This document shows positions 3,130 to 60,024 of a stretch of DNA of 60,024 bases, piece after piece. The notes beneath the pieces are model-generated. The model did not search any database and was not told the DNA's origin. It saw only the letters and a list, made by a program, of their open reading frames with translations. Numbering within the stretch: position 1 is the stretch's first letter; every line of letters begins with the position of its first letter. This DNA comes from a virus. A program made the position numbers and the translations under genes. The stretch covers positions 1 through 60,024 of IMG/VR virus record IMGVR_UViG_3300042455_000193. One strand, given 5' to 3'.

Positions 3130-3178
3130 TAATGCCAAACAATGCTTTGATGTTTGAATCAACATAGGAGAATCCCTG

Positions 3179-3769
3179 ATGGCATCAAGAAGAGAGTTAA
3201 CAGCCGAAGAAATGGCTGATACACAGCGACTGCAGCAGCTGTGGAAATCGCGTGCACACACCCTTGGACTGACCCAAGCCAAGGCAAGCCAGATGTTTGG
3301 CTTTGCCAATCAAAGCGCTATCAGTCAGTACCTCAATGGGCGTATCCCTTTGAACATGGAAACTACGACTCGCTTTGCTGCGCTGCTCAAAGTTCCACTC
3401 GGTGATATCTCCCCAAGTCACGCAAGCAGAACAACATCAACTTCCCCACTGATGAACGCTATGAGAAAAGCGTTTAAGACAGGGGACAACTGTGATCTGA
3501 TTGCTGTGACCAGCGGCATGCAAGACATCGTTGGCAACTCCGATTACCTTCTTGTTGACAAGAGCCAAAAGAAACCCGCTAAAGGCGTTTTCTTGGTGGG
3601 TGTAGGCGCTGATACCAGAACACTGCGTTTATCGCCCTACAAGTCTTCCTATCGAGTTACAGGGCTAGTGCCAGGAAGTGAAGTCTCTCTACCCAAAGAG
3701 GCACTGGAAGCTATGAACATTATCGGCAAGGTTGCTGGCGTGATGATGATGCTTCAAGAAGACTTTTAA
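3179..3769 (+). CDS. CI-like phage repressor (XRE HTH plus S24-like domain)
   Basis: 196 residues. Residues ~15-65 form an XRE-type helix-turn-helix (LGLTQAKASQMFG, then QSAISQYLNGRIPL). The C-terminal part resembles the S24/LexA-CI fold (GNSDYLLVDKSQ, then VGADTRTLRLSPY). In self-cleaving members a GDSM-like Ser and a later Lys form the dyad. Here the matching segment reads TSGMQD, and the Lys position falls in TRTLRL, so autoproteolysis looks unlikely. AGGAG precedes the ATG by 8 bases. It is transcribed divergently from the replication operon and is the likely lysogeny repressor acting on the operators here. Confidence 0.85.
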   Translation: MASRRELTAEEMADTQRLQQLWKSRAHTLGLTQAKASQMFGFANQSAISQYLNGRIPLNMETTTRFAALLKVPLGDISPSHASRTTSTSPLMNAMRKAFKTGDNCDLIAVTSGMQDIVGNSDYLLVDKSQKKPAKGVFLVGVGADTRTLRLSPYKSSYRVTGLVPGSEVSLPKEALEAMNIIGKVAGVMMMLQEDF

Positions 3770-51037: not shown

Positions 51038-51058
51038 TAAAGAAGGGTGGGAGTAATT

Positions 51059-51487
51059 ATGTTGAAAGATGCACAAAAACCATATGCTCGTTTGCTTATT
51101 CAAAAGCTAAAAGAGTGTGGAATCAAAGAAGTTGTTGTTACCTTTGATGGAAGCGGAGACTCCGGGCAAATCGAAGAGGTTAGCTATGGATCAATGGACA
51201 AGCCGGACGCTTTTGTTGAATGGGTTGAAATTGATTCAACTTGGATAGATGGAAGTTGGGTTGAAAAAAACGAAGTTAAAAAGATTGATATACACAGCGC
51301 CTTAGAAAACTTCTGTTACGAAGCCTTGGAAGATGCTGGCATCGATTGGTACAACAACGATGGCGGATACGGGGAACTTCGAATCAACCTAGATCCAATC
51401 GAGATTAACTTAGAAGTTAGTACAAGATACACAGAAACTTTTACAAGTTCTTTGGGATTTGACGAGAACTTAGAAGAGGTTGAATGA
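51059..51487 (+). CDS. DUF6878-like protein
   Basis: 142 residues from the ATG at 51059 (GGGAG upstream). VVVTFDGSGDSGQIEEVSYG is the characteristic block, with an acidic DAGIDWYNNDGGYGELRINL later. Found in phage and plasmid accessory regions; function unknown. Overlaps the next gene's tandem ATGs. Confidence 0.75.
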   Translation: MLKDAQKPYARLLIQKLKECGIKEVVVTFDGSGDSGQIEEVSYGSMDKPDAFVEWVEIDSTWIDGSWVEKNEVKKIDIHSALENFCYEALEDAGIDWYNNDGGYGELRINLDPIEINLEVSTRYTETFTSSLGFDENLEEVE

Positions 51488-51831
51488 TGCACCCACACCA
51501 TCACTCAATGACTACTGTCAAACAGTACGGCGGCAAACCTGAAGACTACGCCGCTATTCATGATTGGTTTGACGCAACCAAAGAACAGTTTGCTGATGCA
51601 AGACATCGTGCATTACGCCATCACTCTCAGGGAATCTTTGAATGCGAACGAATCTTCGGTCGTGTGATTGTCAATTCAGATGGCAAAGAAGTACCAGTCA
51701 GATACATCGGTGAGCAGCATGTCAAAGAAGACTGTGGTGGTCGCATACCAACCGTTGCTGATTGGTTCCGCAACATCAAGTTGGAAACATGGATGAACCG
51801 TGGCTACAGGATTAATGCATCAGGTGAATAA
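51484..51831 (+). CDS. DUF6915-like protein
   Basis: 115 residues. HPHHHSMTTVKQYGGKPEDY, then AIHDWFDATKEQFADARHRA, LRHHSQGIFECERIFG and EQHVKEDCGGRIPTVADWF. The many His and Asp residues (HPHHHS, HDWFD, RHRALRHH, EQHVKED) look like a metal site. The block is conserved in phage and plasmid accessory proteins. Start ambiguity of one codon (ATGATG). Confidence 0.78.
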   Translation: MMHPHHHSMTTVKQYGGKPEDYAAIHDWFDATKEQFADARHRALRHHSQGIFECERIFGRVIVNSDGKEVPVRYIGEQHVKEDCGGRIPTVADWFRNIKLETWMNRGYRINASGE

Positions 51832-51835
51832 GTCT

Positions 51836-51910
51836 GGCACATGCGTGAAATGAAACCAACTGAAACGGCAACGGGAATGTGCCTAGTCGTGACAGCCGGG
51901 AGAGACCGGC
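51836..51910 (+). ncRNA. Candidate structured leader RNA
   Basis: In a 98-bp gap, GGCACAT (51836) pairs with ATGTGCC (51877-51883), enclosing a 34-base A-rich interior with CCAACTGAAACGG. A second hairpin GCCGG-GAGAGA-CCGGC lies at 51895-51910, 20 bases before the next ATG. The paired arms and purine-rich loops suggest a cis-regulatory RNA; no known class is assigned. Confidence 0.45.
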
Positions 51911-51929
51911 GCTTAACTTAAGGATCAAT

Positions 51930-52265
51930 ATGAAATACCAAACACATAACGAGACAGAAGTAGACACCAACATGTCTCATCTCCAAGGTTATATCACCGC
52001 AGATTACGAAGAACTTGTTGATGCATTCGGTCCGCCAATGCGATACGGCTTCGATGACTACAAGGTAGATGCCGAGTGGCACATCTCATTTGCAGATGGC
52101 AGCGTAGCTTCTATCTATAACTGGAAGAACGGCAGGAACTACATGGGTACACAAGGTATGGATGTACAAGACATACGTGAGTGGCATGTCGGTGGCTTCT
52201 CAAAGATCACCTTGTTTCGGTTGGCTGAAGTATTAAACAAGCAGACTGTTCAAGCAGCAGCTTAA
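51930..52265 (+). CDS. Conserved accessory protein
   Basis: 111 residues from the ATG at 51930 (AAGGA upstream); a longer frame from 51879 would run through the structured element. SHLQGYITADYEELVDAFGP, then DAEWHISFADGSVASIYNWK, then IREWHVGGFSKITL, forms a small alpha/beta domain common in phage and plasmid accessory proteins. Function unknown. Confidence 0.75.
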   Translation: MKYQTHNETEVDTNMSHLQGYITADYEELVDAFGPPMRYGFDDYKVDAEWHISFADGSVASIYNWKNGRNYMGTQGMDVQDIREWHVGGFSKITLFRLAEVLNKQTVQAAA

Positions 52266-58879: not shown

Positions 58880-58958
58880 AGTAATGTCTGCATCCTTCGC
58901 AAGTTAAGCCCCGTATGCTTTTCTTTCCATCCGCTCGTTCGCTTGATGGGTTCTCCAT
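58770..58958 (-). CDS. Small Cys-rich protein
   Basis: 62 residues. TCEGCRHYYERYDQLK, then RRCELYRAAPIERCYDYRPP, gives four cysteines in a C-x2-C...C...C zinc-like arrangement seen in small phage proteins near RusA. GGAG precedes the ATG. It overlaps the 111-residue gene by 55 bases and RusA as drawn by 110. Confidence 0.75.
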   Translation of the reverse strand: MENPSSERADGKKSIRGLTCEGCRHYYERYDQLKIVRRCELYRAAPIERCYDYRPPRRTTED

Positions 58959-59239
58959 ACTTCAATCTCCAATTCAATTCGTTTGATTTCAAAGCGCTGG
59001 AGTTCTTCAGCCTCCACTGCATCCCTTAATACTTCCAGATGTTTGATGTACTCCGGTCGTGAGTAAGACTCACGCTCCTGCGCAGACACGCTAGTGAATC
59101 CCTTGCGCTCTGCATCTTTCAGAAGCAGACTTAACAAACTCTTTTTGTATTCTTCTAAGTACACGCGATGAGACTTAGCTTGACTGTAGGGAGCTCCCTT
59201 CATCCGGTATTCGTACAGTAATTTTTCAATGTCATGCAT
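58904..59239 (-). CDS. Helical protein of replication operon (111 aa)
   Basis: Complete copy of the gene cut at the left edge. KSHRVYLEEYKKSLLSLLLK, then EYIKHLEVLRDAVEAEELQR: charged, helical, probably coiled-coil. AGGAG before the ATG; 8-bp overlap with the nuclease gene. Function unknown. Confidence 0.78.
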   Translation of the reverse strand: MHDIEKLLYEYRMKGAPYSQAKSHRVYLEEYKKSLLSLLLKDAERKGFTSVSAQERESYSRPEYIKHLEVLRDAVEAEELQRFEIKRIELEIEVWRTHQANERMERKAYGA

Positions 59240-59747
59240 GTGTAGCTCCTTGTAAAACTGTTAACAAATCTTCAATAGAACCAAGGTGCTGTTGCAGCAC
59301 ACTGTGGCGTGGTCCGTAACCAAAGTCCTCTACTGTTTTGATCCGGCGAAACTTATCTTTAGAGATAGCGCCAGTTAACCTGACACTTGCAGGTCCAGTC
59401 ACTGCTGCACCAACAAGAATGTCAGCCCTGACATCATCAATGTCATCAACGTACAGTCTGTTGTTGCTGCCGTAATCTTTTGATAGCGTCTTGACTTGAA
59501 TCCTTTTGTCTGAATGCCTGATGTCTGAGCCATCGTCACCATAGAAAAGCAAGTCAACATGAAATGGAATACCTAATACTTTGCACAAGCCTGACTCACC
59601 CATCAACCCAATCAGATGAAGTGCATAGTCATCAATGTCTGTGGTGTACTTTTTGTTTCGCAGTTGATTTAGTTTCTTGGTCTCATAGATCAATGATGCG
59701 TAATGCAAGATCGTGTGCATCTCTGGTGCTGTGAAAATAACTTTCAT
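59232..59747 (-). CDS. PD-(D/E)XK-like nuclease, right-hand copy
   Basis: Same gene as 312-827. The DNA differs at about ten sites, yet the protein is unchanged, so all these differences are silent and selection is purifying. Start and overlaps as in the left copy. Confidence 0.6.
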   Translation of the reverse strand: MKVIFTAPEMHTILHYASLIYETKKLNQLRNKKYTTDIDDYALHLIGLMGESGLCKVLGIPFHVDLLFYGDDGSDIRHSDKRIQVKTLSKDYGSNNRLYVDDIDDVRADILVGAAVTGPASVRLTGAISKDKFRRIKTVEDFGYGPRHSVLQQHLGSIEDLLTVLQGATHA

Positions 59748-60024
59748 TTCAACCCCAGCAATCCCTGCTTCCACATCTCTATCTGTGTGCGGCAGATAGC
59801 AGTCAAGATGTAGTCACGCTTTTCTTCTTTGTTCATGCGTGTACCAGTGTCATACTTGGTATGACAGGAGTAGCACAGCCACGCTGTCATACAGTCATGA
59901 GCCTTGTGCCCCATGCCTTTGTCATGCTCTTGCAAATTGCTATGCGCTGCCACAACAGTGCCATCATCTGCAAAGCACATGACACAGCGCTGCCCCTTGG
60001 CAAGCTTGAGTAACTTGTCGCTTC
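59744..60024 (-). CDS. YbcO-like HNH protein, 5' end cut by window edge
   Basis: Right-hand copy of 824-1117; the first few codons lie beyond the window. It shows CVMC, CYSCH and the same spacing. It differs from the left copy at HTKYD (Ile to Thr) and CRTQIEM (His to Gln). Confidence 0.75.
   Translation of the reverse strand, partial: SDKLLKLAKGQRCVMCFADDGTVVAAHSNLQEHDKGMGHKAHDCMTAWLCYSCHTKYDTGTRMNKEEKRDYILTAICRTQIEMWKQGLLGLK

Follow-up and report, generated by a model that had tools for sequence, protein, structure and literature searches.

Several described RNAs invite comparison with the element reported here, which lies at positions 51836 to 51910 of a 60,024-nucleotide phage sequence (IMG/VR record IMGVR_UViG_3300042455_000193; the whole stretch is referred to as the window). 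The GOLLD and ROOL RNAs are phage non-coding RNAs hundreds of nucleotides long, found in tRNA-rich regions and catalogued in Rfam; the pistol ribozyme, likewise listed in Rfam, has a hairpin whose loop pairs downstream; and the type III antitoxin RNAs (ToxI-like) are short H-type pseudoknots in phages and plasmids. Theta ribozymes, which are minimal hepatitis delta virus (HDV)-like ribozymes, are small pseudoknotted phage RNAs beside tRNA genes, with a cleavage site at the position of the tRNA 3' end (PMC10879173). The put RNA of phage HK022, of about 70 nt and with two stem-loops, acts in cis without a phage protein and contacts the conserved beta' zinc-binding domain, through which it suppresses both pausing and termination (PMC9378689). 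The element in the window lies within the 98-base gap between the stop of a DUF6915 gene (51831) and an ATG at 51930, and we are highly confident that it is a conserved structured RNA whose family Rfam does not list. Its parts are as follows.

51836-51842, + strand: 5' strand of helix P1, GGCACAT, with 7 Watson-Crick pairs to 51877-51883
51877-51883, + strand: 3' strand of P1, ATGTGCC, lying inside the P2 loop, hence a pseudoknot
51865-51869, + strand: 5' strand of helix P2, ACGGC, with an A just before it, pairing with 51886-51890
51886-51890, + strand: 3' strand of P2, GTCGT, the partner of ACGGC
51891-51894, + strand: linker GACA (family form GAC[A/G], rarely GGC[A/G])
51895-51910, + strand: P3 hairpin GCCGG-GAGAGA-CCGGC (GCCGG 51895-51899, loop 51900-51905, CCGGC 51906-51910)
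51858-51913, + strand: extent of the whole core according to covariance model R1, which matches it at 50.4 bits (E = 1.3e-10 within its own genome), a score that is not independent, as the same-sequence relative L002 is in the model seed

The initial annotation had proposed the 7-bp stem and the 5-bp hairpin with its GAGAGA loop, and both are present, the stem being entirely Watson-Crick. Taken singly, the window copy gives weak statistics: its fold alone is not significant (z = -0.87 for 51828-51932), nor is the length of the helix, since at least 7 Watson-Crick pairs arise in 30 of 500 dinucleotide shuffles (6%). It is the comparison with relatives that carries the element far beyond chance. 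The P3 hairpin pattern ACRGCCGGGAGAGACCGGC occurs in at least 119 stretches of viral contigs, against an expectation of about 1, estimated roughly by taking the size of the collection as about 60 Gb. When most stem bases were left free and the first stem sequence was excluded, 110 of the 121 matches listed still formed all five base pairs, using roughly a dozen distinct stems. A third pattern left the loop bases free, and among the matches listed its 123 distinct contexts had GAGAGA in 91 cases, GAAAGA in 26 and other loops in 6. A likeness of the GAAAGA form to bases 2057-2062 of 23S rRNA was considered, but no structural parallel was found.

Helix P2, which had not been noted initially, is also enriched, with five pairs in 116 of 204 sequences (69 +/- 5.8 by permutation) and four pairs in 208 of 263 (163 +/- 6 by permutation). 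All five P2 pairs change on both sides among the R1-aligned matches, with the caveat that this alignment leans toward the model and that the seed was chosen for P2 pairing. The G and T directly before GAC are conserved in 88% and 92% of 263 distinct copies; conservation of the linker is partly imposed by the search pattern, but GAC[A/G] is also found in copies recovered by the covariance model alone. At least 4 pairs of P1 are present in 43 of 138 sequences, compared to 18.8 by permutation (maximum 31 in 200 permutations). Compensatory changes thus preserve P3 and P2, and P1 is supported by its enrichment across the family. No excess over permutation was seen for a closing stem between the bases after the hairpin and upstream bases, which had been spotted by eye in some copies.

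The 5' strand of P1 precedes P2 and its 3' strand sits in the P2 loop, so that P1 and P2 together form an H-type pseudoknot. The two paired elements first described do therefore exist, although across the family the enriched stems form this pseudoknot and not two separate hairpins. P1 of the window is longer than that of the family and lies 22 nt before P2, compared with 0-2 nt family-wide, and its GGCACAT/ATGTGCC strands are invariant across five close relatives; from the sequence it is plausible that this 7-bp stem is real.

The family core reads R-AC-NNN, a variable loop, N'N'N'-GU-GAC[A/G], a 4-5 bp stem, GARAGA, the returning stem strand and mostly an A, and apart from this common core the contexts of the matches are unrelated. 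The conserved part is thus the 3' half, and not the purine-rich interior loops that had been thought to look conserved. Similarly, the interior CCAACTGAAACGG-CAACGGG, initially taken as an RNA core, is kept only in five near-identical viral contigs that have nearly the same element as the window. We also tried the CCAACTGAAACGG interior as a search key and rejected it, since beyond the near-identical contigs it returned what look like chance matches without the hairpin, many of them in low-complexity repeats.

The proposal that this is a new structured RNA, by contrast, was borne out, in that P3 and P2 covary strongly and Rfam 15 has no match to the element. The scan the initial annotation called for gave no match anywhere in the window, and none at E<=10 for 51750-51990; in 18 relatives it found only tRNAs and nothing over the element, and at E<=3 in another 13 loci it gave tRNAs and some weak matches attributable to chance, none of them on the element. 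No description of it was found in the open-licence literature. By these sequence-based tests the element is a new, widespread family of phage RNA, one copy of which is in the window; 'new' applies to the RNA family, and the mechanism could be of a known kind.

R1 finds this single copy in the window and, in 49 phage records picked because they carry the element, usually one locus per record and sometimes several clustered copies. These additional copies in relatives and isolate phages are the better tests of the model, as are 203 kb of viral contigs gathered for another motif, in which it has no match. The carrier phages, CS01 of Cronobacter and Pokken of Stenotrophomonas among them, infect Cronobacter, Pseudomonas, Stenotrophomonas, Xanthomonas, Klebsiella, Acinetobacter, Aeromonas, Planktothrix, Microcystis, Rhodobacter, Phaeobacter and others, and one of them is a lambdoid coliphage. 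Bacterial records with the element belong, by title, to about eight phyla (Pseudomonadota, Cyanobacteriota, Chloroflexota, Planctomycetota, Acidobacteriota, Myxococcota, Bacteroidota and Bacillota), these host labels being soft because several of the records are metagenome bins. Several bacterial copies have prophage genes for neighbours, for instance those for a major head protein, a RecT-like protein and a phage transposase; the tested neighbours of the Chloroflexota copies are not clearly of phage origin.

In contig L184, which has tandem copies of the element and a tRNA, positions 3178-3214 match the abiF RNA (RF03085) at 35.9 bits, against a gathering threshold of 37 bits. A Pantoea and an Acinetobacter plasmid (L363, 1374-3115; L364, 1570-3332) have in common a stretch of 800 bases or more that is identical between them, lacks annotated genes and carries the element and a tRNA-like sequence, which we read as a recent transfer of a phage-plasmid-like region between genera.

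In the window the element is flanked by the following features.

51484-51831, + strand: upstream DUF6915 gene (phrog_8143), absent in relatives L003 and L004, where another open reading frame (ORF) ends at the 5' edge of the element
51920-51924, + strand: AAGGA, a sequence like a ribosome-binding site, beginning 10 nt behind the hairpin
51930-52265, + strand: 111-amino acid ORF directly downstream, with no Pfam or PHROGs family

The element does precede an ORF here, as the initial annotation of a leader RNA held, but this is only one of several settings, as it also occurs in tRNA arrays and non-coding gaps. For gene context we relied on annotated isolates, since the output of our own ORF caller in GC-rich contigs contained too much noise. 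Among 21 annotated records, 18 have their next gene or tRNA on the strand of the element, and RcCWillis, Alexa and BUCT551 do not; in the last of these, an Aeromonas phage (L361, 2480-2523), the element lies inside the 3' part of an annotated primase gene, which reflects either a coding overlap or a mis-annotated gene end. For 340 hairpins, the 50 tRNAs downstream all share the strand of the hairpin, with no case on the opposite one, and the spacing from element to tRNA, with the element upstream, peaks at 4-6 nt. At one locus (L017, 4696-6162) several tRNAs each stand behind their own hairpin, with the linker GGC[A/G] commoner than GACA. Otherwise the element is followed by unknown ORFs, a holin, phage structural genes or a convergent gene.

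The complete strand bias toward tRNAs, the covarying stems and the fixed loop and linker bear on whether this is an RNA at all. An element acting as DNA, be it a hairpin promoter or a site of recombination or packaging, or else a fold arisen by chance, would be in keeping with the weak single-copy statistics, and also with the situation in L003 and L004, where a two-gene upstream block (51039-51826 in the window) is replaced by another ORF and the right-hand join is exactly the 5' edge of the element. Set against these three properties, such explanations are already disfavoured, and we consider them highly improbable. In such gene exchange the element may act as the border between modules. We dropped the identity of the element between the window and L003 as a proof of selection, because the neighbouring ORF is 96.7% identical and near-identity over ~90 bases is not decisive.

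A leader that controls translation of the next ORF, or a riboswitch, whose fold opens or blocks the start site, would fit the nearness of the start codons, whether or not they have a ribosome site. ORF leaders are of two kinds: most, that of the window among them, measure 18-33 nt and contain a ribosome site, and others measure 7-13 nt and have none. However, no consistent downstream gene or pathway, as would be expected of a riboswitch or gene-specific leader, was seen in the annotated contexts; the same fold also precedes tRNAs and a convergent gene; and in the window the ribosome site lies outside all three helices. We therefore regard translation control as quite improbable. ORFs 7-13 nt behind the element that lack a ribosome site are what is expected of a processed mRNA with a short leader.

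With a fixed fold, a sense orientation, a wide host range and no common partner or target gene, the element is likely to act alone or with universal host machinery, and its placement before tRNAs, before ORFs and in non-coding arrays best suits a boundary. Our favoured reading, held tentatively and at somewhat less than even chances, is a cis-acting RNA-processing element, possibly self-cleaving. The pseudoknot and the GARAGA hairpin would pack tightly together into a fold that cuts the RNA itself or attracts a cut, and the cut would separate the unit behind the element from the RNA in front; this unit would be an ORF with its own ribosome site in the window, and elsewhere a tRNA 4-6 bases downstream. 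As the hosts are many and no common neighbouring gene was seen, self-cleavage or a universal host nuclease appears likelier than a phage-specific protein. We infer any cleavage, the agent of the cut and, in the window copy, P1. The exchange of upstream genes at the 5' edge in L003 and L004 is counted for the boundary role. In Alexa, a terminator-like hairpin closes the non-coding stretch in which the element lies, and convergent genes come next; copies of this type, with the next gene on the opposite strand, fit a boundary element better than a gene-specific regulator.

The following points weigh against RNA processing. The 4-6 nt spacing may be plain compactness, as gaps between tRNAs in phage arrays are also of only a few nt; there is usually one locus per genome, when a general processing signal might be commoner; and some copies take an early-left leader position near a terminator, which suits antitermination equally. 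The last of these introduces the main rival, a put-like antitermination RNA whose nascent fold would bind host RNA polymerase during elongation and carry it past terminators or Rho, whether in early leaders, in tRNA arrays that are not translated or in long operons. The element of BUCT709, Medea1, mEp390 and an E. coli prophage occupies the early-left leader position, downstream of a CI-like repressor, and the lambdoid prophage copies adjoin terminator-like hairpins. Like putL and putR of HK022 it is a short, structured and apparently protein-independent phage RNA, and putL follows the early-left promoter, a position that the element also seems to take in several lambdoid prophages. A protein-free contact with the conserved beta' zinc-binding domain would, moreover, explain the wide host range.

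The comparison with HK022 itself is less encouraging. Run without filters, R1 has no match in the 24-36 kb early region, the best score being 11.1 bits with the hairpin missing, and blastn of the prophage leaders against this region gave short chance pieces and no meaningful similarity, although an inverted-repeat search of HK022 did not locate put itself by sequence. The two stem-loops of put lack this pseudoknot (PMC9378689) and the GARAGA hairpin. The window and many relatives place the element in the middle of an operon, and the Alexa copy precedes a terminator-like hairpin and convergent genes. On balance we think a put-like action rather unlikely. As a separate observation, the early-left leaders of an E. 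coli prophage (L365, 2150-2690) and a Stenotrophomonas phage (L360, 1800-2700) have in common a long stretch of non-coding sequence in which several GGAAAGACC-type hairpins are accompanied by a terminator-like hairpin with T7; this stretch is a candidate antitermination leader.

Stretches of 500-1,700 nt without annotated genes surround the element in several carriers, and together with the copies among tRNAs these raise the question of whether it belongs to longer phage non-coding RNAs as one of their domains, or offers an RNA-binding protein of host or phage a place to dock, and in this way stabilises or localises RNA, with the window keeping the domain only. Minimal copies such as that of the window are, however, complete in less than 100 nt, with nothing else non-coding alongside, and we judge this explanation unlikely. 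GOLLD and ROOL are in Rfam, whereas the element has no Rfam match in the window or the tested relatives.

Among small ribozymes, pistol and the other small self-cleaving classes are Rfam-listed and not matched in the window, and we know of no small self-cleaving class with a GARAGA loop and a GACA linker. The element resembles the theta ribozymes in being small, pseudoknotted and beside phage tRNA genes, but it lies 5' of the tRNAs, with a spacing peak of 4-6 nt, and not at their 3' ends. Nor does it have the nested double pseudoknot of HDV-like ribozymes (P1, P2, P3, P1.1 and a catalytic C in J4/2), as the 3' strand of P1 is within a few nt of the 5' strand of P2 and leaves no room for an HDV-like P3. 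Type III antitoxins are recognised by pseudoknots repeated in tandem, with an endoribonuclease toxin gene behind them, whereas the element is mostly single copy and before unrelated ORFs and tRNAs; no common toxin or downstream gene was seen and the next ORF of the window has no family match, albeit no toxin-specific search was made.

The ends of the window record (1-1104 and 58921-60024) repeat each other over 1,104 bases with 98.5% identity (1,087/1,104), so that a 180-amino acid ORF is duplicated (312-854 and 59232-59774). This repeat represents either terminal redundancy or the assembly overlap of a circular genome.

Few phage RNA motifs are so common and yet uncatalogued. In the broadest interpretation, which we offer as a doubtful but possible one, the element is a new small class of self-cleaving or polymerase-modifying RNA, built of an H-type pseudoknot and a GARAGA hairpin, that tailed phages of about eight phyla use as a plug-in boundary before genes and tRNAs. 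The compact copies in isolate phages make its function directly testable. Should it prove to cut RNA, it would count as a new ribozyme or nuclease signal and help to explain how tRNAs and genes are separated on long phage transcripts; if it acts on polymerase, protein-free antitermination would go from a rarity of one group to a general phage strategy.
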